A stretch of DNA of 64,000 nucleotides, from the NCBI RefSeq assembly GCF_902728265.1, contig NZ_CACVBR010000002.1, forward strand, positions 231,165 through 295,164, in the 5' to 3' direction. This stretch comes from Chryseobacterium potabilaquae (GTDB lineage Bacteria; Bacteroidota; Bacteroidia; Flavobacteriales; Weeksellaceae). How positions within the stretch are numbered: position 1 is the stretch's first letter; the number at the start of each line of letters is the position of its first letter. Below are positions 45,062-63,200 of the stretch, in pieces. The notes under the pieces were generated by a model that saw nothing but the letters and a program-made list of their open reading frames with translations, ran no database searches and was not told the DNA's origin. The position numbers were made by a program, and so were the translations under genes.

Positions 45062-46216
45062 ATGAAAAAATTTCATTTTTTACTCGTATTATTAAGTACT
45101 GTATTGTGTTTTGGGCAATCTTCTGGAACAATATGTAGTGAGTTTGGACTAACGATATCATATTCGTACCAAAAAACAGGTAATACCATTGTCAATCCTC
45201 AAACAGAAACAAAATTTGATGAGTATATTATTACCTGTACTGCAAATAATACTTCAAGTAAATGCGTAGGCTTCAAAGACCCCATTGTTGAACTTAATCT
45301 TCTTGGTATTGATTTCGGTGTTGAAGATAATCGTTTTACAGCAGAAAGAGCAGCCCATATGTCGGGACACTTAAATCATAATTATAACCATGACAAATGC
45401 AGTTGCACGGACAGCCGGGGATACAATTTTGGGATTCTTGCCACTCCATGTCCAGGTACTAAGTCGGAAACTCATTATACATTTGTTTACCCTAAAGGTG
45501 AAACTCCCCGCATTAAATGGTATGAATGTTATTTAGAACAAGTCGGAGATGTACAGGCAACCACTAAAGACACAGAAATAACTGAAAATAAAGAAGATAC
45601 AGAAAATAGAGGAATTATTGTTGAGGAACCGCAAATACCGGATGAGATTATTGCTATTGTAGCAAAAAGATCTGCTCTATGTGATGAATTAGAATCCTTA
45701 GTAAATCAAAAAAATATTACCAATTCAACATATGATATATATTGCCCTAAGAGTGCTAGTGAAAAAGTTATTTATGCTTCCACAGATGATTATACTCTTG
45801 AAGATCTCGGATGGCTACAAAAACAAGTTCAAAGCATGGAAGAAGCTATAGAAGAGATCAACAACCCTACAAATACAGATAATGAAGCCACTAATAATGA
45901 AACAGAAGATAGTGAAGATGAAATAATACAAGAACCTGAATTTCCTAATGGTGCAGCAGCCTTTGCCCAATTAATCATGGATGGTTTGAATATGAATAAT
46001 ATTACAAATAAAGGAAAAATAAGGTCCATACTCAAGTTTGTCGTGTTGACAGATGGTAGTATTACTAATATTGAAGCAAGTGGCGAAAACGAATCATTAA
46101 ACAACGAAGCGGTAAAAGCAGCAAGATCTATTACTACACTATGGACACCCGCAATGAAAAAAAGTGGAGTTGTACAATACCAATTAACTCTACCTATTGT
46201 ATTTGTAATTCAATAG
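45062..46216 (+). CDS. Secreted protein with a C-terminal TonB_C-like domain
   Basis: The 384-residue protein has a signal peptide (to LCFGQS). A Cys-rich domain of about 25-160 contains C-x-C in HDKCSCTDSRGY. An acidic Glu/Thr/Asn-rich linker follows at about 165-190 and 270-290. The C-terminal 90 residues match the TonB C-terminal pattern: FPNGAAAFAQLI, ILKFVVLTDGSITNIE, LNNEAVKAARSITTLWTPA and VVQYQLTLPIVF. There is no membrane anchor or proline-rich spanning region, so it is not a normal energy transducer. The N-terminal part is unknown to me. A clear terminator follows. Confidence 0.7.
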   Translation: MKKFHFLLVLLSTVLCFGQSSGTICSEFGLTISYSYQKTGNTIVNPQTETKFDEYIITCTANNTSSKCVGFKDPIVELNLLGIDFGVEDNRFTAERAAHMSGHLNHNYNHDKCSCTDSRGYNFGILATPCPGTKSETHYTFVYPKGETPRIKWYECYLEQVGDVQATTKDTEITENKEDTENRGIIVEEPQIPDEIIAIVAKRSALCDELESLVNQKNITNSTYDIYCPKSASEKVIYASTDDYTLEDLGWLQKQVQSMEEAIEEINNPTNTDNEATNNETEDSEDEIIQEPEFPNGAAAFAQLIMDGLNMNNITNKGKIRSILKFVVLTDGSITNIEASGENESLNNEAVKAARSITTLWTPAMKKSGVVQYQLTLPIVFVIQ

Positions 46217-46514: not shown

Positions 46515-46904
46515 TTAGTTCAAGTTTATTTTTTGTTTTTCCCACATAGATCTATAAACAGAGTCTTTGGATATAAGTTCATTGTGATCTCCTTTCTCTA
46601 TAATTTGTCCTTCTTTCATAACCAAAATAGTATCAGCATTTGCAATTGTACTCAATCGATGTGCTATCACAATCATCGTTTTTCCTTGATTTCTAAATTC
46701 CTGTAAGGTATTTTGAATAGCCATTTCTGATTCAGAATCTAATGAAGACGTCGCTTCATCTAAAATTAATATTTCTGGACTTTTATATAAAGCTCTGGCA
46801 ATAGCAATTCTTCGTTTTTGCCCCCCAGATAATAGCGCTCCATTTTCACCTAAATAAGTTTGAAAACCATTGGGTAATTTTTCAACAAAACTCAGGATGC
46901 CCAA
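46515..46904 (-). pseudogene. C-terminal fragment of an ABC exporter ATPase
   Basis: Only about the last 130 residues of an exporter ATPase domain are present. The ABC signature LLSGGQKRR, Walker B ILILDEATSSLD and the switch His in VIAHRLST are intact. The Walker A motif and all membrane segments are missing. The frame has only a TTG as start and an in-frame TAA about 14 codons upstream. It is related to, but not a copy of, the C39 exporter at 48027. It lies downstream of the peptide gene at 47145, so it looks like the scar of a deleted second exporter gene. Confidence 0.75.
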
Positions 46905-47144
46905 TTTTTTAGTGATGAAGTTGTTTAAATTTATTTTTTAACATTGAAAAAAATGATTTTACACTAAACAGGTTAAAATAGGATATAGAAGGAGACGATT
47001 AAAACTATGTTTATGAACATATTGGCCATAACAAATGAAACGATAAAAAATCATTCGATTTTCAAACTAACTAAATTGGGCTATTTCAGGTGAAACAACC
47101 CAAAATTTAACTAACTCATAAAGTATTAGTTGTTTTATTGAATG

Positions 47145-47294
47145 TTAACTGAGAAAGAACCCAATAGCTGTTATAGCATATTTTCCATATTTTACTATTT
47201 TTGCAGCTGTTTGGACTGCTTCATATGCCATACCATTATGTCCCCCATTACATTCATTTAGTTCTTCAATTGTTAATAATTTTAAATTCTCCAT
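47145..47294 (-). CDS. Double-glycine leader peptide, bacteriocin-like precursor B (49 aa)
   Basis: A 49-codon frame, too short for usual gene-finding limits. The leader MENLKLLTIEELNECNGG ends in Gly17-Gly18. It fits the class II bacteriocin leader pattern with Leu -12, Glu -8 and Leu -7. The 31-residue core starts HNGMAYEAVQTAAKIVKYGK and ends YAITAIGFFLS. It is cationic, Cys-free and able to form an amphipathic helix, like an unmodified pore-forming bacteriocin. The start is 9 bases after the CPBP-protein stop, and the C39-peptidase exporter lies two genes upstream in the same run. The context strongly supports a real gene; antibacterial activity is inference. Confidence 0.8.
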   Translation of the reverse strand: MENLKLLTIEELNECNGGHNGMAYEAVQTAAKIVKYGKYAITAIGFFLS

Positions 47295-47303
47295 ATTGAT
47301 TAT

Positions 47304-47978
47304 TTAAAGATAAATATTGATTAAATTTATTAAACAATGTAATAATATTCCCCATATAAATCCTAGTTTCATACGTATGTTAGTAATAAAGTATCCTAGT
47401 ATTATTTGAGGAATAATAAATACGGGATAAAATATAATCAAAGGTAGATGAAAAGGCTTAATATTTGAGATATGTGCCAAACCAAATAGAATTATAGAAA
47501 ATATAACAAAAAATTTATTGTGATTATTTATAAACGAAATAACATATTTATCTTTCCAATAAACTATCATAGCTATTGAAATTGCTATTCCAAATTTTAG
47601 ATAAAAAGCAAAATCGGTAAATTCTACTTTTGTAAAGTTTCCATTTAATATATAAAATGAAAAGAATAAAAAAAATATACTTATATAAAATGTATTAGGC
47701 TTTAAAATTAACCTGAATAAAATTTCTTCAATTATAGGAACTATAATTGCAACTTTTAAAATATTTTCATTACTAATCTCATTCGTTGATTCCGATATAA
47801 GATTAATTATAGATTCATAATTTAATATATTAACTATAAAATAATCTACCGGCGCTATAAGTAATAAACTGAATAGAGTACAAATACATATAAAAATATA
47901 CGAACCCAATACTAATAAAACTTTCTTAAAAATGTGTATTTCTAAAAAGTTGGCTTTTGAGAAAATATTATAAAACAT
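47304..47978 (-). CDS. CPBP-family intramembrane protease, possible immunity protein
   Basis: The 224-residue protein has about 6-7 membrane helices. The three CPBP motifs are present: EEILFR (E-E-x-x-x-R, in VPIIEEILFRLIL), FGLAHISN (F-x-x-x-H), and HCLINL (H-x-x-x-N). Members of this family act in self-immunity to bacteriocins in several Gram-positive systems (PlnI type) or in peptide processing. It is encoded between the exporter (48-base gap) and precursor B (9-base gap), which is the usual place for an immunity gene. Confidence 0.85.
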   Translation of the reverse strand: MFYNIFSKANFLEIHIFKKVLLVLGSYIFICICTLFSLLLIAPVDYFIVNILNYESIINLISESTNEISNENILKVAIIVPIIEEILFRLILKPNTFYISIFFLFFSFYILNGNFTKVEFTDFAFYLKFGIAISIAMIVYWKDKYVISFINNHNKFFVIFSIILFGLAHISNIKPFHLPLIIFYPVFIIPQIILGYFITNIRMKLGFIWGILLHCLINLINIYL

Positions 47979-48026
47979 TATTTTGAAAATAGGAGTTCCA
48001 AGCTAAAATCGGAACTCCATTTAAAT

Positions 48027-50225
48027 TTAATTTCCTAATTCTAATTGATTTTTGACTAGATAATAATAATCTGCCTTATTATCTACTAACTCTTTATGGT
48101 CCCCTTGCTCTACTATTTTCCCATTTTTAAGCACAATAATTTGATCCGCACTTTTTACTGTAGATAATCTATGCGCTATTACAATAACAGTTTTTCCTTT
48201 AAAAAAGCTTTGTAAATTATCATGAATAATTTTCTCATTTTCAGCATCTAGAGCACTTGTTGCTTCATCTAAGAAAATATAATGAGGGTCTTTGTATACT
48301 GCTCTTGCAATTAATATCCTTTGCTTTTGTCCTCCAGAAATACCATTTCCGGTTGCTCCTATTTTTGTATTAAATTTCAAAGGTAAGGAATCGATAAACT
48401 CTTCTATATTAGATATTTTAGTAGCTTTTTGAAGTCTATCGACACTAATATTTTCATCTCCTGTAGCAATATTTCTTTCAATAGTATCAGAAAAAATGAA
48501 TCCATCTTGCATAACAACCCCACAATTTTCTCTTAGGCTTTTTGCAGATAACCTGCTTATTTGCATCGAATTATATAATATCTCTCCTTCTGAAGGTTCA
48601 TAAAATTTCAGCAATAACTTCATTAATGTTGTTTTTCCACTTCCGCTTGCCCCCACAATCGCAGTTATTTTTCCTTTAGGAATAGATAAATTAATATCTT
48701 TTAGTACGTATGGAGATTTTGGTCCTTCATATTGGAAATTCACATTTCTAAGTTCAATGTCATTGGTAACTCCATTAATTGTAGAGGAATTTAAATCTAA
48801 CTTTATTTGTTCTGAATTTTCTTCCACAGCATGATTTTGGACCTCACTCAATCTTTCTAAACTTAACTTTGCATCCTGTAAAGAACGAAAAAACACTACT
48901 AATTGATTAATAGGAGAATTCATTTGTCCTATAATATAGGAAATACTTAAAAGTTCTCCCAAAGTCATTTTTCCATGTACTACAAAAGTAGCAGCTAAGA
49001 ATGTTACCAATATATTTTTAACTTGATTGAGAAAATCAAAACCTGAAATTTGTATTTGGTTAAGCTTTAAAATCCTGATATTGATATTAAAAAGTTTTTG
49101 TTGGATATTTTCCCACTCTTTACGCTTATAGTCTTCAAATTGATTTAATTTAATTTCTGTAACCCCATTAATAATTTCATAAATTGACTCTTGATTTCTA
49201 CTCCTTTCTTGAAATTTGTAATAATCTAAAATTTTCTGTTTCTTTAGCCAATAAAAAGACCATGAAATAGAGATGAAGGTAAGTGATATATAAGCCAATA
49301 AAATGTTACCATCATAATGCCATAATACACCAAAGAAAACGAGAAAAGTAATCATGGAAAAAAAAGTCAATAAACTTTGTGAAGTTAAAAACTGCTCTAT
49401 TCTTTCATTATCTTGTATCCTTTGATTAAAATCTCCAATCATCTTCGTATCAAAAAATTTAATGGGAAGTTGAAGCAATTTTTTCAGAAAATCTGAAATA
49501 ATGGTTATGCTTAGCTTTGTTCCCATATAAAGCATCAACCAGTTTCTTATAACCTCAATAATTATAGATCCTAAAAATAATCCCAATTGTGCCAACAAAA
49601 TGACTGTGATGAGATTTAGATTTTTTGCATTAACCCCCTTATCAATTAAGTTTTGAGTGAGAAAAGGAAATATTAAAGTAATTCCACTTCCTACCAATAA
49701 CATCAAAAACATTAAAAAAAGTTGTTTCTGATATGATTTAAGATACTTTAACAAAAAACCTAAGCCAATTTCTTCTTCTTTTGGGAGCTGTAATTTATAA
49801 AAATATTCTGTAGGTGTAAGAAATAAGGCAACCCCTTTTTCTTTATCTGAAAGCCAAGATCTTTTAAAATTTTCTTCAGAAATAGAAATAAAACCATATC
49901 CTGGGTCTGCTATCTTATAAATAATTTTGCTAGATAACCAATTCTTTTTTATCCTGTATAGAACAACAAAATGATTTTGATTCCAATGGAGGATGCAAGG
50001 AAAGAGTTCTTCTTTAAAGTCTTCAGATTTCAGTTTCGCCGACAAAGTTTTAAAACCGATTTTTTCTGCTGCGTCACTAATTCCCAACAAAGAGACTCCT
50101 TCTTTTGTTATATGACTTTTATCGTGAAGATATTGGATATCAATTTTTTTTCCATAATGCATACTGATCATAGCAAGACAGGCCGGCCCACAGCCCATTT
50201 GGTCATGTTGGGGGATAATCTTCAT
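48027..50225 (-). CDS. Peptidase-containing ABC exporter (C39 domain), cleaves Gly-Gly leaders
   Basis: The 732-residue protein has an N-terminal C39 cysteine peptidase: QMGCGPACLAMI with catalytic Cys12, NQNHFVVLY with His85, and KIADPGYG with Asp107. About 6 membrane helices follow at about 165-440. The ATPase has Walker A VGASGSGKTTL, signature ISGGQKQR, Walker B FLDEATSALD and the HRLST switch. Such proteins cut leaders after Gly-Gly and export the core peptide across the inner membrane. It follows the radical SAM gene by 90 bases and precedes the CPBP gene. Both the 51690 and 47145 peptides are plausible cargo. No HlyD-type adaptor gene is seen in this window. Confidence 0.94.
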   Translation of the reverse strand: MKIIPQHDQMGCGPACLAMISMHYGKKIDIQYLHDKSHITKEGVSLLGISDAAEKIGFKTLSAKLKSEDFKEELFPCILHWNQNHFVVLYRIKKNWLSSKIIYKIADPGYGFISISEENFKRSWLSDKEKGVALFLTPTEYFYKLQLPKEEEIGLGFLLKYLKSYQKQLFLMFLMLLVGSGITLIFPFLTQNLIDKGVNAKNLNLITVILLAQLGLFLGSIIIEVIRNWLMLYMGTKLSITIISDFLKKLLQLPIKFFDTKMIGDFNQRIQDNERIEQFLTSQSLLTFFSMITFLVFFGVLWHYDGNILLAYISLTFISISWSFYWLKKQKILDYYKFQERSRNQESIYEIINGVTEIKLNQFEDYKRKEWENIQQKLFNINIRILKLNQIQISGFDFLNQVKNILVTFLAATFVVHGKMTLGELLSISYIIGQMNSPINQLVVFFRSLQDAKLSLERLSEVQNHAVEENSEQIKLDLNSSTINGVTNDIELRNVNFQYEGPKSPYVLKDINLSIPKGKITAIVGASGSGKTTLMKLLLKFYEPSEGEILYNSMQISRLSAKSLRENCGVVMQDGFIFSDTIERNIATGDENISVDRLQKATKISNIEEFIDSLPLKFNTKIGATGNGISGGQKQRILIARAVYKDPHYIFLDEATSALDAENEKIIHDNLQSFFKGKTVIVIAHRLSTVKSADQIIVLKNGKIVEQGDHKELVDNKADYYYLVKNQLELGN

Positions 50226-50315
50226 AAATTGTAATCTTTTCGTTTTTATTTAAGGAGAAAAAGACGGAGTAAATCAATTGAATGTATTTATAAACCTGAA
50301 TTAAAAACAATTATT

Positions 50316-51629
50316 TTACAGATTGACTGTTTCTACGATTCTAGAATAAAATTTCTGCCTAATTAGTTCTAACTTACTATTTTCATCAAAATTATGAACA
50401 CAATACTCCTTACCCTCATTCACCATTCTATGTTGAGAACATCCTCCATTGCAAATAGGTAATATTTTACATTTTAAACAAGGAGGGTTTTTAAAACGGG
50501 TATCATATATTCTCTTTTGAAACTTATCATTCCATACAATGCGGCCATTATCTTTTAAATCACCTTCTTTCGATGCGGTATCAAAATCTCTTGCGGTACA
50601 TTTAAATACTTCTCCATTATAATTTATAGTGGCTTGATTCAATTTATCAGCATAACATGAGGACTTTATTGAGGCTGTTTGCTCTCCTTTATAAGTACAT
50701 CTAAATTTATTTTCTCGAAATATATCTACTATATTAGAAATATCACATGTTAAATTTTTTTCTTCTTGCCAAACCTCATGAAAAGAAAATGTTAAAAAGT
50801 CTCTATCAGCTAAGTTAACATCATCAAAATCTTCAATTATTTTTATTAGATCAGAAATAGTTTCTTCAGATATATTTATTCTGATATTTATATTAAATTT
50901 ATTTTTTACAGAAAGTTTAATATTGTTAACAATTTCATCGTAACTACCTCGAGTTTTAGAAATAAATCTTACTTTATTATGTCTTTCTCTATGACCATCT
51001 AAGGTTATTTGAAAAAAATTCACACCATAATTTTTACATTCCTCTAAAATATTTTGATTGATTAATAATCCATTCGTAGTGAAACCAGATTTAAAACTAA
51101 TATTATTTTTAATTATTTTAGGATAGATATTTTTAAGCAATGGCAAAACCGTTTTATCAAAATATAACAATGGTTCCCCCCCAAACCAACTAAGAGTAAA
51201 CTGTTCCAAAATATTTTTTTTATCCTCTAAAATATGGTCAATATGAGTAACTATTTTCTGAAGAGTTTCTTCAGACATTTTTGAATCCTTAATATGAGTT
51301 TCATAACAATACCAACATTTGAAATTGCAATTCATTGTCGGATTAATTATTAAATGATACTCTTTTTCATCAAAATCATGATCAAAGCTTATCCTTTTGA
51401 TTTCTTCGAGTTCATCAAATTCATCGTTTATAATAAAGCCATTTGATACAAGAATAGTATATAAATCCTCATGCACTAATTGCAAATCCTCAATAATATT
51501 TTCATTTAAACTTGCTTCGAATAAATCAAATAGTATTGGTTCTAATATAATGAAACTGTTGCTCAAAGAATTATATCCTACTTTTTTATTCTCATAATCA
51601 AAAAAACTATTATAATAGCTACTTTTCAT
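50316..51629 (-). CDS. Radical SAM/SPASM peptide maturase
   Basis: The 437-residue enzyme has an N-terminal region (about 1-90) that could bind a leader peptide. The radical SAM cluster motif follows in NPTMNCNFKCWYCYE (Cys101, Cys105, Cys108), then LSWFGGEPLL and FTTNGLLI. The C-terminal SPASM domain has CLKCKILPICNGGCSQ (384-399) and a late Cys410, as in peptide-modifying enzymes that carry auxiliary iron-sulphur clusters. It probably modifies the peptide encoded directly upstream at 51690. The chemistry (thioether, carbon-carbon crosslink or other) cannot be told. No ATP-grasp, LanB or cyclase gene is near. Confidence 0.9.
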   Translation of the reverse strand: MKSSYYNSFFDYENKKVGYNSLSNSFIILEPILFDLFEASLNENIIEDLQLVHEDLYTILVSNGFIINDEFDELEEIKRISFDHDFDEKEYHLIINPTMNCNFKCWYCYETHIKDSKMSEETLQKIVTHIDHILEDKKNILEQFTLSWFGGEPLLYFDKTVLPLLKNIYPKIIKNNISFKSGFTTNGLLINQNILEECKNYGVNFFQITLDGHRERHNKVRFISKTRGSYDEIVNNIKLSVKNKFNINIRINISEETISDLIKIIEDFDDVNLADRDFLTFSFHEVWQEEKNLTCDISNIVDIFRENKFRCTYKGEQTASIKSSCYADKLNQATINYNGEVFKCTARDFDTASKEGDLKDNGRIVWNDKFQKRIYDTRFKNPPCLKCKILPICNGGCSQHRMVNEGKEYCVHNFDENSKLELIRQKFYSRIVETVNL

Positions 51630-51651
51630 TCTTTATCATTTTATTATAAAA

Positions 51652-51676
51652 CCTGTTAGATCAATGACCTAACAGG
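51652..51676 (-). terminator. Attenuator hairpin between precursor A and the radical SAM gene
   Basis: On the minus strand CCTGTTAG pairs with CTAACAGG, extended inward by a G-T and a T-A pair to 10 bp with a 5-base loop, and TTTTATAA follows. It lies 13 bases after the precursor stop. Partial termination here would give more peptide than enzyme. Confidence 0.75.
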
Positions 51677-51689
51677 CTGCTTTATTAAA

Positions 51690-51845
51690 CTAGCAAACAG
51701 AGTTATGACACTGATTATTATTCCCGTCAAGTCCACCAGACTTTATAGGCTGAATTGCCTTTATCCCTCCTTTCAGTTTACCTTTTTCATTTTCGCTTAA
51801 TATTTCCATTTTTGCTATTATAGCTTTGAAATTTAAATTTTTCAT
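51690..51845 (-). CDS. RiPP precursor peptide A (51 aa) with Gly-Gly leader
   Basis: A 51-codon frame directly upstream of the radical SAM gene. The leader MKNLNFKAIIAKMEI + LSENEKGKLKGG ends at Gly26-Gly27, with Leu -12, Ser -11 and Glu -8 as in double-glycine leaders of Bacteroidota peptides. The 24-residue core IKAIQPIKSGGLDGN + NNQCHNSVC has two Cys (46, 51), three Asn in a row and no Phe, Tyr or Trp. A second Gly-Gly (37-38) could be an alternative cut site. Position, hairpin and neighbours make it the likely substrate of the maturase and of the C39 exporter. Confidence 0.85.
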   Translation of the reverse strand: MKNLNFKAIIAKMEILSENEKGKLKGGIKAIQPIKSGGLDGNNNQCHNSVC

Positions 51846-51975
51846 TTTTGATTAAGTTTATTATTAATTATTGTGAGTAATAGTTTTCTTACATTAACTC
51901 GTTCGGTAATTGCTTGCAAGCTTTATATTGTTACCTTCATTTGAATTGGCCATTTCAAAATATTAGGCTATACAA

Positions 51976-54141
51976 TTAGTTATTTCTATTCTTTTCCTCT
52001 TGATTTCCTGTAGCTCTTTTATTAATATTTATGTTCTTATTTCCGAAATTATAATTCAACGCAAATCTTATAAACCTTGTATCATAATATTGTGTGAAAT
52101 TTTGTCTAATTCCCGAAGTTCCATTCGCAGAAGTTCCATAATCTGTCTTCAGGATATCATTAAAGTTGAGTGCTAACGTCATTTTTTTATCAAGTAGTAA
52201 ATATTTAAGTCCTATATTAAGACTTGAAGATGCAGTAAAACTATTCATTCCCGTAGAAGGAAAATTGTATTCGTAATAAATAGTTGCCAAAAAGGTTTTA
52301 TTTGCATTTAAGATAAAATTATTAGCCATATTACTATATCCATACCACCCTGAATAATGAGTAGCAAGAATATCTATATAAGGATTTGATTCGTAGTATC
52401 CCGATCCAATTTCAGTAGAAAAATTCCACCAGCTTAATGGTTTATGATTGACAGAGAGAGTTCCCCCTATAAACTTTTCATGGGCAAAGTTTAACCTTTT
52501 AAAAGTTTGCTGCTCATTTTGAGTATCATGAAAAGTTAGCTGTCCAAAATTATTAATAGCATTACTATAATATAAATTCAGATTAAGTAGCGTTTTATAT
52601 GCATAATTCACTTCAATGTTATATATAAAAGAAGGTTGTAAAAAAGGATTCCCTTCCGCGTAAGAATTTGGATTTTGATACCATCTTGCAGGATTTAGCT
52701 CCCAAAAACTAGGACGTCGTATCCTTCTTCCGAAACTTGCGAACATCATATTATTTTCATTAGCTTTATAAGAAAGATACATTGTGGGAAACAACTTAAA
52801 ATATTTATTTTTGTTCATTTGATTATTGGAGATAGAATTAGAAATTGTTTGTGTATATTCACCTCTTAGTCCTATTTTTGCTTCCCATTTCTTATTAAAA
52901 GTTTTATTTATCGAGAAATAAAGGGACTGTATATTCTCAGTATATTTGAAATTATCACTTTGTGAACTGATAGGAATATAATCTACGATATTGTATAAAT
53001 TAGCATCAACACTGTTTCTTGTATTGGTCGTAACTACTTTTGCACCAAAAGATAAATGAGCAAATCGATATGGTAAATCAAAATCTGTTTTGAGAGAGTA
53101 ATTTTTAACATTCTGGTTAGAGGTATTAATAGCATGCACCTTTTCTACCGAAGCATCCCCAATATCATTCATTACACTATTAAACTGATTGTTTTTTGGC
53201 GATTGGGTATCGAAATAATCTAAATCAACAGAAACTTTTTTACCAAGAGAATCTATTTTGTATGTGTAATTTGTATTAAAGGAAAGATTTTGGGGTCTTG
53301 TAAAGGATCTACCATTAGTTTCATAATCTTTTGATAAAGAATTAATGCCATTATAACTTTTATTGAAATTGAATTCGTCTGTAGAATTATCTGAAAAAGT
53401 CCCCGAATATTGAAAACCTAATACACTCTTTTTTGACAGTTCATATTGAAAATTGATAGAACTTCCCACATTATTGATATGTTTTCTATTAAATATATAA
53501 TTTTTCCAATGTTCTAAAGGATAATAATAGTTAATATCATTAGTATAAAGCTCTTTTCCATACCTATAAGACAAATCTGTTAAAATAGAAAGTTTGTTTT
53601 TTTGATAAGAAAATCCTACTCCGTGGGTCAAGCTTGTATAATTTGCCTGTTGGTAAGTTGAGCGAAGACCTACGCTCCAAGCATTTTGTTTTGATGTTTT
53701 CAGTTGAATATTTATTAAACCACTGCTTCCCTCAGCATCATATTTTGCGGGTGGATTAGTGATAACTTCAATTTTTTTAATAGTTTCAGCAGGGATATTT
53801 TTCAAGTAATTCATCAAATCTTCCCCAGAAAGTTGAGTAAGTCTATCGTTGATCATTACTTTTACTGAATTTTTTCCTGTTAATAATATATTCTCACTTT
53901 GAATCCTAATACTTGGTGTAATTTTCAAAATTTCTAATGCATTACCTCCTATTCCGGATATAGAATTTTCCACATTGAAAACAATCCTATCTATTTTTCT
54001 TTCAACAAGTTTTTTATTAGCCTTTATTTCGACTTCTTGTATTTCTTTTTCTACTATCTTACCCAGAGAATCATTTTTTTTCTCTTGTGAGAAAGTAATT
54101 ATAGGAAAGGTAATACAGAATATGGAGATTATATTTTTCAT
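51976..54141 (-). CDS. TonB-dependent receptor, outer membrane beta-barrel family
   Basis: The 721-residue protein has a signal peptide (to TFSQE) and a short N-terminal TonB-box-like IQEVEIKANKK. The plug is of the type NALEILKITPSI, VKVMINDRLTQLSGEDLMNY and KIEVITNPPAKYDAEGSSG. A barrel ends in RFALNYNFGNKN. The plug pattern is that of receptors whose barrel falls in the OMP_b-brl_3 group, not SusC. It lies upstream of precursor A on the same strand (130-base gap) and behind a predicted promoter with two upstream palindrome sites. It may move the peptide, or a metal-peptide complex, across the outer membrane. Confidence 0.87.
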   Translation of the reverse strand: MKNIISIFCITFPIITFSQEKKNDSLGKIVEKEIQEVEIKANKKLVERKIDRIVFNVENSISGIGGNALEILKITPSIRIQSENILLTGKNSVKVMINDRLTQLSGEDLMNYLKNIPAETIKKIEVITNPPAKYDAEGSSGLINIQLKTSKQNAWSVGLRSTYQQANYTSLTHGVGFSYQKNKLSILTDLSYRYGKELYTNDINYYYPLEHWKNYIFNRKHINNVGSSINFQYELSKKSVLGFQYSGTFSDNSTDEFNFNKSYNGINSLSKDYETNGRSFTRPQNLSFNTNYTYKIDSLGKKVSVDLDYFDTQSPKNNQFNSVMNDIGDASVEKVHAINTSNQNVKNYSLKTDFDLPYRFAHLSFGAKVVTTNTRNSVDANLYNIVDYIPISSQSDNFKYTENIQSLYFSINKTFNKKWEAKIGLRGEYTQTISNSISNNQMNKNKYFKLFPTMYLSYKANENNMMFASFGRRIRRPSFWELNPARWYQNPNSYAEGNPFLQPSFIYNIEVNYAYKTLLNLNLYYSNAINNFGQLTFHDTQNEQQTFKRLNFAHEKFIGGTLSVNHKPLSWWNFSTEIGSGYYESNPYIDILATHYSGWYGYSNMANNFILNANKTFLATIYYEYNFPSTGMNSFTASSSLNIGLKYLLLDKKMTLALNFNDILKTDYGTSANGTSGIRQNFTQYYDTRFIRFALNYNFGNKNININKRATGNQEEKNRNN

Positions 54142-54188
54142 CTATGATTTCATTTTGTGTACTTGACACGGTACACATTTATCGGTGG

Positions 54189-54220
54189 CAAAGATGCTGT
54201 AAGATCAACTGATTATGCAA
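54189..54220 (-). promoter_or_regulatory. Promoter-like elements of the TonB receptor gene
   Basis: On the minus strand there is TTG (54220-54218), 21 bases, then CATCTTTG (54196-54189), one mismatch from TAnnTTTG. It lies 48 bases before the ATG. Two copies of the AAATTCAT box lie just upstream. Confidence 0.5.
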
Positions 54221-54233
54221 GCGGTTGGCTCAT

Positions 54234-54269
54234 AAATTCATAAATCCATGAAAGCAAATTCATGAATTT
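54234..54269. promoter_or_regulatory. Tandem palindromic boxes upstream of the TonB receptor
   Basis: AAATTCATGAATTT at 54256-54269 is a perfect 14-bp palindrome. A degenerate copy, AAATTCATAAATCC, lies at 54234-54247, exactly 22 bases (two helical turns) closer to the promoter, and ends 14 bases before the -33 TTG. The perfect palindrome recurs at 56146-56159. Candidate activator site for the AraC-type regulator encoded next door. Confidence 0.6.
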
Positions 54270-54309
54270 AAAAATAATAATTCATTAAAAACCAGAAATT
54301 TAAATAATT

Positions 54310-56034
54310 TCAACGTCCCATTTTTTCAATTTCTTTTAAATAAATAGAAAGTGGGGTTCCTGTTCGTTTTTTAAATGCTAAAGTAAATGCTTGTTCTGTA
54401 TTATAACCTAATTCATCTGCAATAGACGATATTTTATACGAGCGGAATTTTTTACTCTCAGCAAGTTTGTTTATAGCATAATCAATCCGAAGGTCATTTA
54501 AATAAGCAGCGAAATTTTTACCTTTATGAGTATTAATTATTTCCGATAAGTATTTAGAATTTGTTTTTATTTTTTTTGCAAGATTTCCTAAAGTAATTCC
54601 TTTATTTAAAAATTGCTTTTTTATTTCAAAGATTTCCAATTCTTTCAGAACAGCTTGAACTACATTTTTTGAAATAACACTAGTGTTTTTATCTTTTATG
54701 TTTTCTTGTTCTATTGTATTAAAAGAATTTTGTTGTTGAGATTCTATTGGAAGATGAATCCTATTATCTGCCTGAACTTTTTGGATTAAATCTTGAGCAA
54801 TCTTTCTATATTGCTTTTCAGATTTTTTAGATTTATTGTATAGAAATATTAATATTAATAGGATCAATAATAAAATTACAAGAGAAAAGTAAAATATTTT
54901 TTTTTTATTTTTTAGTTCATTAATGATAGTTTCTTTTTCATGTATAAGTTTTGGGGTGTCATATCGTCTGGGCAATTCGCGAGATACATATTTGAATTGA
55001 GAATCCAACATTTGATTTATTTTTAAAAATCTTTCGATGTAATACAACTGCTTTTCTTTATCTTTCTTTTCTTTATAATAATCTATCAGATAAGTATAAG
55101 CTTCTCCAAGCTCAAGGAATACATAATTATTCTTATGAACCATAGAGTCAATTTTAACAAAACTCTCTGCAGCCTTTTCATTTTCATTTAATCCTGTATA
55201 GGATTTTCCTAAATATAAAAGAGTATAATTTTTATTTCTTATATCATCTGTTGCAAGAAAATATCTTTTGCATAATAATAAATCATTAATAGCAAGCTGA
55301 TATTTTTTAAGTCTTAAATTATAGAAACCTGCTAAAGTCAAATACTGATAATATCTATAAGTCTTCTTATTTTTAAAAGCACCCAGCCCTCTGCTAATTA
55401 AAATTTTAGCCGAATCTAAATTGTTAATTTCAATATAACAATCTGCGAGATTTAGTCGAATTTTTTCTAACTCATTTTCAGTTAGATAGAATGCGTTATC
55501 TAGATAATACCTTAACACTTTAGCCGCTTCAGAATCTTTTCCGATATAACTATTTAAATAAGCAATATTAGTTTCCGCTAATGCGATTTGCCTTTTATTA
55601 TTATTTTGTTTTGCATATTTTAATCCTATTATATAATTATTTAATGCTTTTTTTTGATCATTAAATTTAAAATATATATTCGCCCTTAATAAGTAAATAC
55701 GTGTAGGGTATATATTTTCTTTTGAGTTTTTAGTTAATTCCGCCAAACTGTCTATGTATTTTAATGCATCCCTTTCATTTTCATTAACACACATAAAAGC
55801 ATATCCTTCGGCTATTTGGAGATTGTTTTTTTCTTGTTTGGATTTTGCTATATAGTATTGTGCAATCATCCTAGATTGCTCAGGTTGCCCATCATAGTTA
55901 TAATCATAAAATTTTTCCTGCAGTTCCTTATAAGAATACTTCTTTAATGAATCTATTGATCTATTTTGTGAACAAAGTAAATTATAGGATAAGATTATTA
56001 AAATACAATAGGTAAGCTTCATCGTTTGTATCAT
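54310..56034 (-). CDS. Membrane-anchored TPR/AraC-family transcriptional regulator
   Basis: The 574-residue protein has a signal peptide or first helix, then TPR-like repeats at about 30-360 (for example QKKALNNYIIGLKYAKQNN, QLAINDLLLCKRYF). One membrane helix follows at about 378-398 (IFYFSLVILLLILLILIFLY), then a linker, and a C-terminal AraC-type double HTH at about 465-570 with LGNLAKKIKTNSKYLSEIIN and SSIADELGYNTEQAFTLAFK plus KRTGTPLSIYL. The layout lets it sense outside peptides and bind DNA at the membrane. Its gene lies between the receptor and the third peptide gene, with a palindrome on each side. The likely real start is the ATG at 56022. Confidence 0.85.
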   Translation of the reverse strand: MIQTMKLTYCILIILSYNLLCSQNRSIDSLKKYSYKELQEKFYDYNYDGQPEQSRMIAQYYIAKSKQEKNNLQIAEGYAFMCVNENERDALKYIDSLAELTKNSKENIYPTRIYLLRANIYFKFNDQKKALNNYIIGLKYAKQNNNKRQIALAETNIAYLNSYIGKDSEAAKVLRYYLDNAFYLTENELEKIRLNLADCYIEINNLDSAKILISRGLGAFKNKKTYRYYQYLTLAGFYNLRLKKYQLAINDLLLCKRYFLATDDIRNKNYTLLYLGKSYTGLNENEKAAESFVKIDSMVHKNNYVFLELGEAYTYLIDYYKEKKDKEKQLYYIERFLKINQMLDSQFKYVSRELPRRYDTPKLIHEKETIINELKNKKKIFYFSLVILLLILLILIFLYNKSKKSEKQYRKIAQDLIQKVQADNRIHLPIESQQQNSFNTIEQENIKDKNTSVISKNVVQAVLKELEIFEIKKQFLNKGITLGNLAKKIKTNSKYLSEIINTHKGKNFAAYLNDLRIDYAINKLAESKKFRSYKISSIADELGYNTEQAFTLAFKKRTGTPLSIYLKEIEKMGR

Positions 56035-56143
56035 TATGCAAAAATATCATATTTAAATCATTTGATTAAGATAACAATTTCATTAATAAAAGCCCCTTCC
56101 AATACTCTTTGATTTTCAACAAATTAAACCACTTTCAATACTT

Positions 56144-56161
56144 ATAAATTCATGAATTTAT
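56144..56161. promoter_or_regulatory. 18-bp palindrome upstream of precursor C
   Basis: ATAAATTCATGAATTTAT is a perfect 18-bp palindrome whose 14-bp core is identical to the box at 54256-54269. It ends 8 bases before a TTTG -33-like element. It lies between the AraC-type regulator and the divergent peptide gene, so it may control both. Confidence 0.65.
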
Positions 56162-56168
56162 GAACTTA

Positions 56169-56203
56169 TTTGATTATGAATTAAAAAAATATCATTTACT
56201 TTG
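56169..56203 (+). promoter_or_regulatory. Promoter-like elements of the precursor C gene
   Basis: TTTG (56169-56172), 23 bases, then TTACTTTG (56196-56203), one mismatch from TAnnTTTG. It lies 32 bases before the ATG at 56236. Confidence 0.45.
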
Positions 56204-56235
56204 TTCTCTTAAATTTAATATTTAACTTGGTCAAA

Positions 56236-56403
56236 ATGAAAAAACAAATCAAAAAGGAAAAAAAATTATCTCTAGAAAAATTACAATTAGTAAAAATTAA
56301 TAATCCTAAGAAAATCTTTGGTGGAACAAAACAATTTATTGAGGGTTGTGGTGACCCAAACAACGCAAGTGGTAACAATGGAGGTATTGATACTGGCAAA
56401 TAA
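56236..56403 (+). CDS. RiPP precursor-like peptide C (55 aa) with Gly-Gly leader
   Basis: A 55-codon frame. The lysine-rich leader MKKQIKKEKKLSLEKLQL + VKINNPKKIFGG ends at Gly29-Gly30, much like leaders of Bacteroidota lanthipeptide-type precursors (K-K-L-x-L-x-K...GG). The 25-residue core TKQFIEGCGDPNNASGN + NGGIDTGK has one Cys and is rich in Gly and Asn. It shares GG(I/L)D and GNN words with precursor A. The secreted prolyl oligopeptidase gene starts 11 bases after its stop. No dedicated maturase is adjacent, so it may use the radical SAM enzyme at 50316 or stay unmodified. Confidence 0.8.
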   Translation: MKKQIKKEKKLSLEKLQLVKINNPKKIFGGTKQFIEGCGDPNNASGNNGGIDTGK

Positions 56404-56414
56404 CTTTTAAGCTT

Positions 56415-58598
56415 GTGAAAAATATTATATTTATCATTACTATTTTATTTACAGTGAATTTCCATTCACAAAAAATTAATTTAGCACCAAATTTCCCTGC
56501 CACAAACCAATATTTTGGAACTAAAATAATCGATGAATATAGAAATCTTGAAGATTTAAAAGATCTTCAAGTGGATAATTGGATGAAATCCCAAACAGAT
56601 TATGCTAATTTGATATTAGATAAAATTCCAAACCGAAATTATTATGTAGAAAAAAGACTAGAACTAGATAAAAGGCAAGGATATTCTATATCTGATTTAA
56701 AAATAACGAGTAATGATAAATATTTTTATTTAAAAAGAAATGCTGAAGAAAAAGCATCTAAATTATATTTTAAAGCAGGGTTTAATGAAAGAGAAGAACT
56801 ACTTTATGATCCATATAATTTCAAATCTAAAAGTGGAAATAATTTTATAATTAATTTAATCAGCCCCAGTTGGGATGGGAATAAAATAGCCATTTCTTTA
56901 ACTGAAAAAGGGAAAGAATTGTCTGAAGTTATTATTATGGATGTAGAAACCAAATATATACATCCTGAAATAATTACCAATACGAATCCTTCAAATATTG
57001 GTGGAATCAAATGGTTAGAAGATAATTCCGGTTTTTTCTATGTATATTACCCCGTGATTGAAAATAATTCTGAGCAATTTGGCAAAAATACTCAATCAAT
57101 TTTATATAAAATAGGCACAGATCCTAAAAAATTAAATGATGTCTTTTCAAATGTAAATAATCCCGAGTTAAAAATTGGTAAGGATGAACTTCCTGCTATC
57201 CTAGTTTTTAATCCTAAAGACAAATACTATATTGGAATGCCAGTAGGTGCCGAAAATTTCAGAAATGCATTTATTATTGACAAAAAAGATCTACTCAATG
57301 GTGAAAAAAATTGGAAAGTTTTATACCATAAAGATTCGAAAGTCTTTTTTATAAGATTATCAGAAGATAATATTTATTTTTTATCTGGTTACAATTCCCC
57401 TAATTTTAAGTTATGCAGAACCAGCATCCATAATCCTAATTTTAAAAATCCAGAGGTATTAGTATCACAAAAAAAAGATGAAGTTATTACTCAATATGCT
57501 CTTACAAAAGATGGGATTTATTATACCACATCTAAAAATGGAGTAGAAGCTAAGTTATACCTATATAAAAATAAAAAAGAAACATATATTAAACTTCCTT
57601 TTATTGCAGGTAATATCAATTTACAATCCAAAGGAAAGAATTTTTCTGATATATGGGTGAATTGTTCAGGGTGGGCAAATGAAGAACAACGCTTCCGTTA
57701 TAATTTGATCACAAATACCTTTAAACCAGAAAATCTCACTCCAGTTGCTGAATATCCTGAATTCAAAAACATTGTAGTTGAAGAAACTACAGCAAAGTCT
57801 CATGATGGAGTTGAAATACCACTATCTTTAATTTACAATAAAAATATTAAAAAAAATAGCACAGCTTCTGTTTTAATAGATTGCTATGGAGCATATGGAA
57901 TATCTAGAAATCCTTTTTTTGCTAAAAGTTTTTTATTATGGGCTAGTCAAGGTGGAATAATGGCAATTGCTCATGTAAGAGGAGGAGGAGAAAAAGGTGA
58001 AGAATGGCGTTTGGGAGGATATAAAGAAAAGAAACCTAATTCTTGGAAAGATCTAATTGCATGTACTGAGTATTTGATAAAGAAAAAATTTACTTCAAAA
58101 AAAAAGATTGCCATTTGGGGAGGAAGTGCAGGTGGTATTACTGTTGGGAGAGCAATGACCAAACGTCCAGATTTATTTGGAGCTGTAATTGTAGAAGCTG
58201 GTGTTTTAAATACCATAAGATCTGAAAAAAATGGAATAGGTGGAACCGATGTGTCTGAATATGGAAGCATAAAGGATCCGAAAGAATTTAAAGGAATATT
58301 AGAAATGGATGCCTATCTCCATATAAAAAAGGGAATAAAATATCCCGCAACTCTAATTTCTACAGGAATTAATGACCCTAGAATTGCCCCTTGGCAATCA
58401 ACAAAATTTGCAGCTAAATTGATGGCAGATGATGCTTCTTCTCATCCTATACTTTTGAAAATAGATTATGAAGGCGGCCATGGAGGGGGATCTATTCCTA
58501 TCTTTCAGCGATATTCTGATTTAAGTGACATATTTGCATTTGCATTTTGGCAGCTAGGTCATCCTGATTACCAACCAAAAGAAAATCTAGACAAGTAA
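56415..58598 (+). CDS. Secreted prolyl oligopeptidase family protease (S9A)
   Basis: The 727-residue protein starts at a GTG that opens the signal peptide KNIIFIITILFTVNFHSQ. The beta-propeller (about 75-420) is followed by an alpha/beta-hydrolase domain with nucleophile Ser571 in WGGSAGGITVG, an Asp in STGINDPRIAPWQ, and the His in YEGGHGGGS. These enzymes cleave short peptides after Pro. Close linkage (11 bases) to precursor C suggests it processes that peptide or degrades a related one in the periplasm. The core contains one Pro (GDPNN), a possible cut site. Confidence 0.9.
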   Translation: MKNIIFIITILFTVNFHSQKINLAPNFPATNQYFGTKIIDEYRNLEDLKDLQVDNWMKSQTDYANLILDKIPNRNYYVEKRLELDKRQGYSISDLKITSNDKYFYLKRNAEEKASKLYFKAGFNEREELLYDPYNFKSKSGNNFIINLISPSWDGNKIAISLTEKGKELSEVIIMDVETKYIHPEIITNTNPSNIGGIKWLEDNSGFFYVYYPVIENNSEQFGKNTQSILYKIGTDPKKLNDVFSNVNNPELKIGKDELPAILVFNPKDKYYIGMPVGAENFRNAFIIDKKDLLNGEKNWKVLYHKDSKVFFIRLSEDNIYFLSGYNSPNFKLCRTSIHNPNFKNPEVLVSQKKDEVITQYALTKDGIYYTTSKNGVEAKLYLYKNKKETYIKLPFIAGNINLQSKGKNFSDIWVNCSGWANEEQRFRYNLITNTFKPENLTPVAEYPEFKNIVVEETTAKSHDGVEIPLSLIYNKNIKKNSTASVLIDCYGAYGISRNPFFAKSFLLWASQGGIMAIAHVRGGGEKGEEWRLGGYKEKKPNSWKDLIACTEYLIKKKFTSKKKIAIWGGSAGGITVGRAMTKRPDLFGAVIVEAGVLNTIRSEKNGIGGTDVSEYGSIKDPKEFKGILEMDAYLHIKKGIKYPATLISTGINDPRIAPWQSTKFAAKLMADDASSHPILLKIDYEGGHGGGSIPIFQRYSDLSDIFAFAFWQLGHPDYQPKENLDK

Positions 58599-60260: not shown

Positions 60261-63200
60261 TTAATCTAATGTTCTTTTTATAATGTCTATTATTTGCTGT
60301 TCTTCTTGCATTATATAATGATGTGCCACATTAAGAGGATAAACTGTTACTAAATTTTGTTTTTCAAGTAATGTATCCACGTTATTACATGGCAACTGAT
60401 GTATATAGCCTGCAAGTAATGGATTTTTATACTCTTCTTCAATCATTGCTTTTAATAATATGGTCTTTGTATACTTCAGATTTGTAGAAATTTTTTGATT
60501 TGCAATAGCATATTCACTCACCAATATTTTTTTAATTTCTATAAAATGATCACTATTGATAGAGACATGGTGTTTTTCATTTATATCTTCATCGGAAGGT
60601 AATGAAATTAATTTCATCAATTCTGGATCTGTAGCACGAATAATGGTATCCAATAAGAATACAGTAATTTTTACATGTCCTCTCCTTTCTAACTCGGAAG
60701 CTATTTCCAGTGCTATCTGTCCCCCTAAAGACCACCCCAATAATATATATTCCTCTTGTTGGCTTTCATGCTGTATCTTTTCAATATAATTCAAATAATA
60801 GGTGGCTAATTGATGAAGATTATCAATCTTTTTCTCATTATATAAATTGTAAGAATCTAATCCATAGCAATGATAATCAGATATTAATTGATCAGAAAGT
60901 GATTGATAAACCTCACATCCTGCAGATGCGGGATGGATCATAAACATGTTTGGTTTACCTTTAGCATCATTAAGAGAAACTATTGCTTTATAATCTCCCT
61001 CATCAAATTCTATTTCATTGTTCTTCGTATTCATATCTAATTTCTCCATAGAAGAAAGTGTATCCACTATTTCTATCATGCGCTTCTTAAATAATTCTGT
61101 AAAATATTCCACTTGGGTCTCAGGCAAATAACCCAAAATGGAAAAATGTAGCTCTCCTTCGGTAATTGCTCCATTAATCGTAATGATTGAAGTACTTCGG
61201 TTATCATTTCCAAAAGAGAGACCACTGCTCTCTGAGGAGATATGCCACGCCCCTTCTCTATCTGAATTTTCCTGATCTAATTGCCCTAAATAATTAAAGC
61301 TTATATGAGGAAGAGCCTGATCTACATATCCCATAAGGCTTCCATAGCCAATACCATTATTAGGGACTGCTCTTAATGACTGCTTAGTTATCATTAGTGT
61401 TTCCAAAAGACTTGAAGAACTATGAAGCCCAAATGGATACATATTGGTAAACCAACCCACTGTTTCTGTAATATCTAAATCATCAAAGATATCTTCTCTT
61501 CCATGACTCTCCAATAAAATCGTATGCGAAAAAGAACCCGTAAAATCCGTGAGAGCCAAAGATAGCGCAGAGAGCAAAATATCATTAATCTGAGTATGAT
61601 ACACCTGATGACATTCACGAAGTAGCTTCTCCGTATAAGTTACATCCAATACAACATGGCCATAATAAGAATTCTGAACGGATAAGCCACTCAGGAAATG
61701 ATTACTATTATTACTTTCAACAACTACATCATTCCAATAAGCAATTTCCGTTTCTCGGTCTACAGGTGATTCTTTTTTATAACCAGCTATAGCTTCTGAC
61801 CATTGACGATAACTACTTCCTTTGGAATCAGCAGATATTTCTTCTGACAACCCTTTTTCAAAAGACTGATAAATCGTTTTAAGATCTTCAGTTATAATCC
61901 TCCAGCTTACAACATCGATAATAAGGTGATGAAATGCAAAAAATATTCTAGCCCTTCCATCTTCATAACCCGTTATATAGCCTATATGCAATAAAGGACC
62001 TTCACTGATATTAAACCCACTCTGCCAATCTGTAAAAATATCAATAAGCTGTGTTTCTGTAATACCAGAACAATCTAGAAGACTTACAGGAGGTACAAAT
62101 AAACCACCGTAATGTTGAACATATGTACCATCTATATTCGGATAAGACATACGTAAAACATCATGCTTCTCTATAAGTACACCTAAACTCTTTTTTAATA
62201 CTTCCAAGTCTAACTTAGGGACATTAATTAAAAATGATTGATTCCAATGATTAAAATCAGGAAATACGCCATCTTTAACCTGTTCAAAGAACCATTCTTG
62301 AATAGGTAGAAGTGGAACAACACCCTGTAAAACACCCTGTTCTGAACGAACAACTCTCACTTTATTTTTCAAATTCCTTTCAATAAAAGCTGAAAGCTTT
62401 TCTACTGAACGATAAGTAAAGATATCTTTCACAGTGATATAAAAATCCAATCTCTTTCGTAAACGACTCACCAACTGAATACTGATAATACTATCTCCTC
62501 CTAATCTGAAAAAATCATCATGAATACTGATACTGGAAGATTCCAAGCCTAAGACCTCTCCATATAACTCCGCTAATTGTTTTTCCAGAACCGTTGTTGG
62601 TGCGATATATTCCTTATCTCCTGTGAAGTTAGGTTCAGGTAAAGCCTTGCGATCCAACTTACCATTAAGCGTAACAGGAAGCTCTTCCAAATGAACATAC
62701 ACAGAAGGGACCATATAATCAGGAAGAAGACCTGATAAGTGCATAGATAAGTCTTCATGATTAACTACATCATCAGACACATAATAACCTACTAAGTATT
62801 TTATCCCTGAACCTTGTTCCTTAGCCAAAACAACTCCCTGACGAATACCTGCATAACTCAATAAGGCGTTTTCTATCTCTCCCAATTCTATCCTATAACC
62901 TCGGATCTTTACCTGGAAGTCATTACGACCTATATATTGTAAATTACCATCTGGTAGAAAACGTACTAAATCTCCTGTCTTATACATCCGTCCATTATAA
63001 CCTATTTCCTTCTCCTCTTCTCTCTGGAAAGGATTAACAACAAAACGCTCAGCCGTAAGCTCAGAAAGATTCAAATAGCCCCGCGAAACTCCTACTCCTC
63101 CGATATATAGCTCTCCTACTCCCCCCAAAGGAACATGACGTAAGTATTCATCTAATACATAAGTGGTGGTATTCACAAGAGGCTTACCTATCACATGAAC

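Follow-up and report, generated by a model that had tools for sequence, protein, structure and literature searches.

The final 64 kb of contig C2 (295,164 bp) in the 4.35-Mb genome of Chryseobacterium potabilaquae, here called the window, carry at 46515–58598 three short Gly-Gly leader genes, named A, B and C, among enzyme, transport and regulator genes. This locus is a common kind of operon for a ribosomally synthesized and post-translationally modified peptide (RiPP) with a radical S-adenosylmethionine (rSAM) enzyme, probably controlled by a regulator from another peptide unit, of the LanB type. In that second unit, a prolyl oligopeptidase (POP) accompanies peptide C and a membrane protein with a tetratricopeptide repeat (TPR) region and an AraC-type DNA-binding domain. 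The reading that we favour, held tentatively and just short of probable, is that it forms a conserved cassette whose regulator binds two palindromes, one to either side of its gene, and switches on both C-POP and the operon of TonB-dependent receptor (TBDR), peptide B, rSAM/SPASM enzyme and C39 exporter, with a C-derived peptide as the probable signal. From 56034 down to 46515, the minus strand encodes TPR-AraC, TBDR, peptide B, rSAM/SPASM, the C39 ABC exporter, a CPBP-like protein, peptide A and an exporter tail of 129 aa, while the plus strand encodes peptide C and then POP. A preliminary description had assembled these genes into one system; the three frames and all neighbours that it named are present where it located them and are genuine, yet they are parts of separate units.

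In Chryseobacterium, C-POP-TPR-AraC forms a unit that is also found where the rSAM genes are absent. Among 148 genomes of the same genus, 53 held a C-like peptide (E ≤0.001) and 93 a POP (E ≤1e-80). The 100 stretches fetched, a part of the listed copies, contained 106 POP frames longer than 1.2 kb, which by their score against the window POP fall into 77 at ≥900 bits, 10 at 600–900 and 19 below; the first two groups make up clade I (87) and the last clade II (19). With a profile of the first 34 residues only, a leader peptide was detected upstream of POP in 58 of the 77, 8 of the 10 and none of the 19 copies (66/87 in clade I vs 0/19 in clade II; two of these leaders, in L259 and L268, are broken or cut frames). 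A leader together with an adjacent TPR-AraC gene was found in 56, 8 and none, respectively (64/87 vs 0/19, over the same distances). The earlier idea of a third peptide with its own protease holds in so far as C and POP form a conserved pair; that they belong to a single three-product system is not supported.

Most of these units also contain a LanB. Of the 66 units with a peptide, 55 had the Lant_dehydr_N half within the 3.5 kb that follow POP and 11 did not, and it was likewise found in 7 of the 21 without one; the second half in the relatives is Lant_dehydr_C, and the split LanB scored 462 bits with PF04738 and 214 bits with PF14028. A view of C-POP-AraC as a pure signalling cassette without enzymes was corrected, because split LanB lies downstream of POP in most units. 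Few of the neighbourhoods that were fetched contain LanC (a three-member component). The window is without LanB, as tblastn with the LanBs of five loci gave only a single chance match there (E 0.82); elsewhere in the genome, an intact copy is found on C23 and broken copies on C22 and C47. Two further units of this genome, L205 (C47) and L209 (C22), are those with broken LanB genes. The unit on C23 (L287, 2775–10289) combines TPR-AraC, a C-like peptide, an S15-family peptidase replacing POP and a split LanB, and S15 peptidase, POP and LanB genes occur together, in varying order, in L201, L202, L225 and L263.

The strongest new evidence is the operator result. Both noncoding stretches beside the TPR-AraC gene have a common 15-bp word around the palindrome AAATTCATGAATTT. 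One copy (54256–54269), 115 bp before the TBDR start codon, is the predicted TPR-AraC operator of the rSAM operon; the other (56146–56159), at a distance of 112 bp from the start of AraC and of 77 bp from that of C, is the predicted operator of AraC and C-POP. These two copies flanking the regulator gene are the only exact ones in the genome, with one-mismatch forms at eight other places. Two exact copies are not rare as such (0.69 expected under a first-order Markov model, P 0.15); a second copy <600 bp from the first has P ~1e-4. When ≤2 mismatches were allowed, there was no enrichment in the window (5 found vs 4.1 expected), so that the exact form alone is informative. The same 14-mer also occurs in the matching stretch of seven other loci (L235–L240, L249). 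Shared control of the locus, which the preliminary description had supposed, has thus gained support, since an identical palindrome flanks the TPR-AraC gene on either side. A second inverted repeat, GTGTAC/GTACAC, was spotted by eye at ~54160–54182 near the TBDR start codon and is possibly the site of another regulator.

This arrangement recurs across the family with different words. Comparing the stretch between AraC and C with the 400 bp beyond AraC in 64 loci including the window (L263 was excluded because its stretch is too short), a shared word of ≥14 bp was found in 35/64 loci vs 28/2078 random windows and 6/239 intergenic stretches of the same loci, and all 35 shared words contain a palindrome core (TTTATAA, TTATAAA or TTCATGAA). 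The word itself varies by locus, for example TAAATTCATGAATTTAGGGA in L235 and CCATAGATTTATAAATCTA in L269. The operator of the C22 unit in the same genome, CGAAATTTATAAATT, has four exact matches, three of them on C22, on both sides of the regulator, and one on C23. In genome G051 (6.2 Mb), all four exact copies of TAAATTCATGAATTTA lie on contig C21 at 76076–85502, beside the unit.

The type of the predicted operator goes with the identity of a single residue in the DNA-binding domain of the regulator. Classifying each side in 65 loci gave 44 TATA/TATA, 7 CATG/CATG and one TATA/CATG, while the remaining 13 were without a call, or had both classes, on one side or on both; where each side had a single class (52 loci), the classes agreed in 51. 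Residue 494, in the first helix-turn-helix (HTH), is Lys in 10/10 CATG loci and in 0/49 TATA loci; we take it to resemble a DNA-contact position of MarA. The both-class loci L249 and L257 have Lys as well, L244 and L246 (TATA on the far side) have Ser, and L245 (no class call) has Arg. Among 17 further regulators, ten were readable at this position; the seven with a class call all agree (two Lys with CATG, one of them with both classes, and five non-Lys with TATA), and the three without a call include one Lys.

The regulator (54310–56034, minus strand; HTH_18 47.7 bits) consists of an N-terminal hydrophobic segment, the TPR region, one transmembrane helix at about residues 380–398 (hydropathy peak of 3.34 at residue 380) and the C-terminal AraC HTH. 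Its AlphaFold model, based on 10 sequences (pLDDT 85.7, pTM 0.60), is all-helical, with a TPR-like superhelix and a long helix before the HTH; the best PDB matches are TPR domains of LGN, solved with partner peptides. We predict the TPR part to be periplasmic. Rank partial correlations of distances were calculated over 57 dereplicated of 63 units. The distance between C cores correlated with that between TPR domains, given POP and HTH (partial r 0.23, permutation P 0.001), and did not correlate with that between HTH domains, given POP and TPR (−0.16). The core–TPR correlation would fit, without proving, coevolution of a ligand with its receptor, and we use it as supportive only.

Peptide C (56236–56403, plus strand, 55 aa) has a leader with LxLxKx5[LI] and Gly-Gly and the core TKQFIEGCGDPNNASGNNGGIDTGK, which contains one Cys. 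The pattern LxLxKx5[LIV] is present in 58 of the 66 C peptides, and the window peptide fits by eye (LSLEKLQLVKI). In a database of 5.8 billion proteins, C matched itself and six others. Of eight sequences run against NCBIfam models (four C-like peptides, three precursors from rSAM loci and a protein fragment), one gave any hit, to TIGR04149 at 14.6 bits, below the cut-off of 25. The 65 peptides with a usable core, the window's included, gave 62 unique cores (the broken or cut L259 and L268 and L212, whose start was not found by the script, are uncounted); 60 contain Pro, 61 Thr and 34 Cys, leaving 28 without Cys. Pro makes up 9.2% of C-core residues vs 3.2% in 194 cores of rSAM-type Gly-Gly frames.

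POP (56415–58598, plus strand) matches Peptidase_S9 (PF00326, 153 bits) and S9_N (PF02897, 126 bits), and its closest solved relative by sequence is 2bkl. It belongs to S9A by its catalytic triad and N-terminal propeller domain, Ser571, Asp654 and His689 being kept in 63/63 aligned copies; it has an N-terminal hydrophobic segment and is predicted to be secreted. In three units, an S15 peptidase and not POP directly follows the peptide, and those cores lack Pro (Fisher 2e-4). The S15 family was assigned by Pfam for the C23 copy, and in a fourth S15 case, L201, the S15 gene is in pieces and the peptide is unusual. A link between core Pro and POP is suggestive, and POP may cut the core at Pro.

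In our reading, C-POP-TPR-AraC is a regulatory cassette whose neighbouring cluster can be exchanged. The gene next to AraC on its far side is oriented away from POP in 59 of 62 loci, and a RiPP-type gene lies ≤6 kb beyond AraC in 41/62 vs 2/62 on the POP side, where the stretch is shorter in many loci. The neighbours comprise 20 cases of grasp-with-spasm, 11 of C39/HlyD exporter genes only, 6 LanB/LanC, 4 rSAM and 21 other; for grasp-with-spasm, one protein each scored 409.6 bits with TIGR04193 (cut-off 175) and 202.3 bits with TIGR04192, below the cut-off of 230. Chryseobacterium sp. JUb7 (L099/L250, one genome) likewise has the unit next to a TBDR-rSAM-C39 operon, and a window-like order is also found in G065 (L293, with a more distant rSAM of only 80 bits). 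Outside the genus, it is seen in Flavobacterium soyae (L040), with a LanB pair in between, and in a Tenacibaculum metagenome-assembled genome (L095), in which no C peptide was detected.

The putatively controlled partner, TBDR-B-rSAM/SPASM-C39 exporter, is a widespread Bacteroidota RiPP operon; its extent from TBDR to exporter is predicted from gene order. Its first gene encodes the TBDR (51976–54141; OMP_b-brl_3 276 bits), followed on the same minus strand by peptide B (51690–51845; 51 aa, Gly-Gly precursor with two Cys at the C-terminus), the rSAM/SPASM peptide maturase (50316–51629; Radical_SAM 73.8 bits) and the C39-peptidase ABC exporter (48027–50225; Peptidase_C39 108, ABC_membrane 121 and ABC_tran 112 bits). 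The CxxxCxxC motif of the maturase reads CNFKCWYC at residue 101, and its SPASM domain scores 46.3 bits with TIGR04085 (cut-off 27) and 18.7 with Pfam SPASM, below the cut-off of 21.5. No named NCBIfam maturase equivalog was above its cut-off among the best 25 of 61 families (best TIGR04463, 176.9 bits vs 525). Because these models stay below cut-off, the window enzyme looks like a member unnamed in NCBIfam, though the operon layout is common.

Relatives of the rSAM protein were collected by a contig search from which the best 80 of 100 stretches, spread over many Bacteroidota and some of them on short contigs, were evaluated. A Gly-Gly frame with ≥2 Cys lies upstream of rSAM in 73/80 loci and a same-strand C39 ABC exporter downstream in 72/80; a TBDR is found ≤8 kb from rSAM in 69 (on the same strand and upstream in 62). 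The pairing of a Gly-Gly precursor with rSAM/SPASM and C39 exporter, a feature of the preliminary description, is supported for a Cys-containing precursor, in that 59/80 loci have precursor, C39 exporter and TBDR together. Within the fetched stretches, POP occurs in 3/80 and TPR-AraC in 11/80 of these loci. The window exporter is up to 71% identical, over its full length, to exporters of other rSAM loci. Peptide B directly adjoins rSAM on its upstream side and by position is predicted to be the cognate precursor and rSAM substrate. By phmmer, its relatives among the 80 loci are in C. oleae (L032, E 5e-7) and, more weakly, in six others; in the 5.8-billion-protein database it matches itself only. 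The predicted B and C frames are more than chance, because 73/80 rSAM loci carry a precursor frame and C-like frames precede 66/87 clade-I and 0/19 clade-II POPs. The rSAM family of the window (L032–L111) is widespread in Bacteroidota with varied Cys-rich precursors, in which the leader end is often GGFS.

The remaining genes of the locus lie beyond this operon. Peptide A (47145–47294, minus strand, 49 aa) is a Gly-Gly frame with a hydrophobic C-terminal part. It has no Pfam match and matches the lactococcin G-alpha family only weakly (16.2 bits vs a cut-off of 37), without a bacteriocin family above cut-off, and is bacteriocin-like by resemblance only. Among the 148 genomes, it was found in its own genome only, and in the 5.8-billion-protein database one other protein is 82% identical. 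A was dropped as a candidate rSAM substrate, since B occupies the conserved precursor position. The adjacent CPBP/Rce1-like membrane protein (47304–47978, minus strand) scores 20.8 bits with PF02517, just below the cut-off of 22.4, and 30.6 with NF052640 (cut-off 220); we guess that it is a candidate immunity or processing protein for A. By the same guess, A may be a young bacteriocin-like gene and the CPBP-like product its immunity protein.

The last element is the tail of a C39-type exporter gene (46515–46904, minus strand, 129 aa), for which no upstream part was found in the adjacent gap. It is 86–91% identical over 124–129 aa to exporters in L269, L206, L173, L262, L187 and L264, and 79% over 111 aa to that of L193; in all seven loci, exporter and HlyD sit on the TPR-AraC side of the C-POP unit. 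The tail is probably a relic of the C unit's own ancestral exporter. Because it matches exporters that lie with HlyD on that side, the rSAM operon seems to have taken the place of the exporter and HlyD in the C-POP unit of the window. Beside the remnant, at 45062–46216, is a protein with a weak TonB C-terminal domain, and at 41125–44157, still near the locus, a sensor protein with Reg_prop propeller and histidine-kinase ATPase domains. Part of a non-ribosomal peptide synthetase (adenylation, carrier, condensation and thioesterase domains) occupies 60261–63998 and continues past the contig end.

In the mechanism that we propose, C would be exported and cleaved after Gly-Gly, and POP would trim its core after Pro, in the periplasm or outside. 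The trimmed product would be bound by the periplasmic-side TPR domain, whereupon the cytoplasmic AraC domain would activate both promoters, and the rSAM operon would yield a modified peptide from B that leaves via its own C39 transporter. In the window, C would be unmodified or modified in trans and leave by another exporter, because the LanB pair is missing beside C and the former exporter is seemingly only a tail. The boldest step is the C-derived peptide as the signal, to which we commit only as a conjecture. In more general terms, this would be a Gram-negative module in which a secreted peptide with a RiPP-type leader, once shortened by a POP of its own, is sensed by a single membrane protein with its TPR part in the periplasm and its AraC part in the cytoplasm. 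Through matching palindromes, this receptor would turn on its own operon together with an exchangeable cluster, and one genome would hold several insulated copies. We found no such module described in the papers searched, and we regard this generalization as possible but somewhat less likely than not.

A number of observations weigh against the proposed cassette and its peptide signal. As to the unit, 21 of the 87 clade-I POPs are without the peptide, and clade II is an imperfect control, as two of its 19 members (L225, L270) lie further down in LanB-bearing units; on the AraC side, no gene was labelled RiPP-type in 21/62 loci. As to the operators, 13 and 44 of 500 shuffled versions of the two window stretches yield a 14-bp palindrome, 17/64 loci have no common 12-bp word between both positions, and mismatched locus pairs share words of ≥14 bp in 241/1256 cases, because the palindromes are alike across the family. 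The exact 16-mer was found once in G009 (at the unit) and not in G042, and of the one-mismatch copies only 1/3 in G009 and 1/2 in G042 are beside the unit. The residue-494 column came from screening, and the CATG loci may be one lineage, making the link to Lys partly phylogenetic; moreover, L241, with CATG on the far side only, has Asn, the discordant L254 has Arg, and L095 has Lys with no CATG found. Correlation with the TPR domain is not confined to the core but extends to the C leader (0.18, P 0.005), and the core correlates weakly with POP (0.10, P 0.007). The link between Pro and POP is itself weak: two of the three S15 units, L263 and L202, hold a POP further on and only L287 (C23) has none. 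Peptide C may be no more than an ordinary RiPP under the same control, with some other cue acting on the regulator.

This last thought, spelled out, is the serious rival, which we rate as doubtful while giving it considerable weight: TPR-AraC answers another cue and activates two RiPP operons, and C is a LanB-type RiPP whose leader or core is trimmed by POP. A LanB ≤3.5 kb downstream of POP in 55/66 units is as expected for a biosynthetic operon, POP-type proteases are known from lanthipeptide maturation (excerpts of PMC7268733 and PMC10885120), and the palindromes fit co-regulation without signalling equally well. Co-regulation alone, however, leaves unexplained why C, POP and TPR-AraC stay together in the 11 of 66 units without LanB, and why core distances are linked to the TPR domain and not to the HTH. 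A meeting by chance in a RiPP hot spot, with the rSAM operon landed by a decaying LanB-type cluster and no function shared, seems improbable to us. Erosion at the C unit, with an exporter remnant and LanB missing, would agree with it, as would a POP in only 3 of the 80 fetched rSAM stretches; against it, the genome's only two exact AAATTCATGAATTT palindromes flank the regulator, the C, POP and AraC frames are intact, and a similar neighbour order exists in L099/L250, L293, L040 and L095 (the last without a detected C peptide). The original view, one composite bacteriocin system with three products secreted via one C39 exporter, could appeal to the Gly-Gly motif in all three frames and to that exporter being the sole full one at the locus, as C's own is seemingly only a tail, but is very improbable given that peptide A is nearly unique and C has a LanB-type leader and an independent history.

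The neighbourhoods in related genomes speak in the same sense against a single system making three products. Only 4/62 C-POP-TPR-AraC loci have a gene labelled rSAM ≤6 kb beyond the regulator, and the rSAM operon mostly occurs without C-POP (POP in 3/80 loci).

If the peptide-controlled cassette is true, it would bear on how Bacteroidota coordinate their many RiPP clusters: TPR-AraC genes would point to the switches of silent clusters in their vicinity, each regulon could be predicted from its palindrome, and such clusters might be woken in culture by a synthetic peptide; pairs of operator and recognition helix would be useful separately as expression tools. In the open PMC library, with subscription papers mostly outside it, we found no paper dealing with the C-POP-TPR-AraC unit or with the control of such clusters by peptides.

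Class I lanthipeptide clusters of Bacteroidota, with the pinensins named among them, have LxLxKx5L/Gly-Gly leaders and split LanB (excerpts of PMC7268733). The C unit is like them in its leader pattern with Gly-Gly and, in the relatives, the split LanB, and unlike them in that the window locus is without LanB, 28/62 unique cores are without Cys, LanC is rare and a POP is part of the operon. FlaP and LanPB are described as POP-type lanthipeptide proteases of class III/IV clusters (excerpts of PMC10885120 and PMC7268733); here too, an S9 prolyl oligopeptidase is encoded with a RiPP precursor, but the enzyme is predicted to be secreted and accompanies LanB-type precursors with Pro-rich cores. In the paper on the graspetide chryseoviridin, TPR proteins are ATP-grasp associates of unclear role, and the word 'oligopeptidase' is absent from its main text (excerpts of PMC8939145). 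The grasp-with-spasm genes (NCBIfam) of such Chryseobacterium loci are the commonest neighbours of the cassette (20/62), whereas the cargo in the window is rSAM and not ATP-grasp.

Receptors of the RRNPP family are cytosolic and are reached by an imported peptide; with its AraC-type HTH and a transmembrane helix near residue 380, TPR-AraC differs from them in this respect. The closest known parallel to the proposed switch is in streptococci, where Rgg/SHP quorum sensing controls RaS-RiPP operons and the regulators recur with different RiPP subfamilies, the SHP being imported and bound by Rgg in the cytoplasm (excerpts of PMC13361665). In both systems, an rSAM RiPP operon is accompanied by a dedicated regulator and by a gene for a short peptide. 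In contrast to Rgg, the regulator described here combines a transmembrane helix, a TPR part predicted to be periplasmic and an AraC domain, and its unit holds a POP and usually a LanB.

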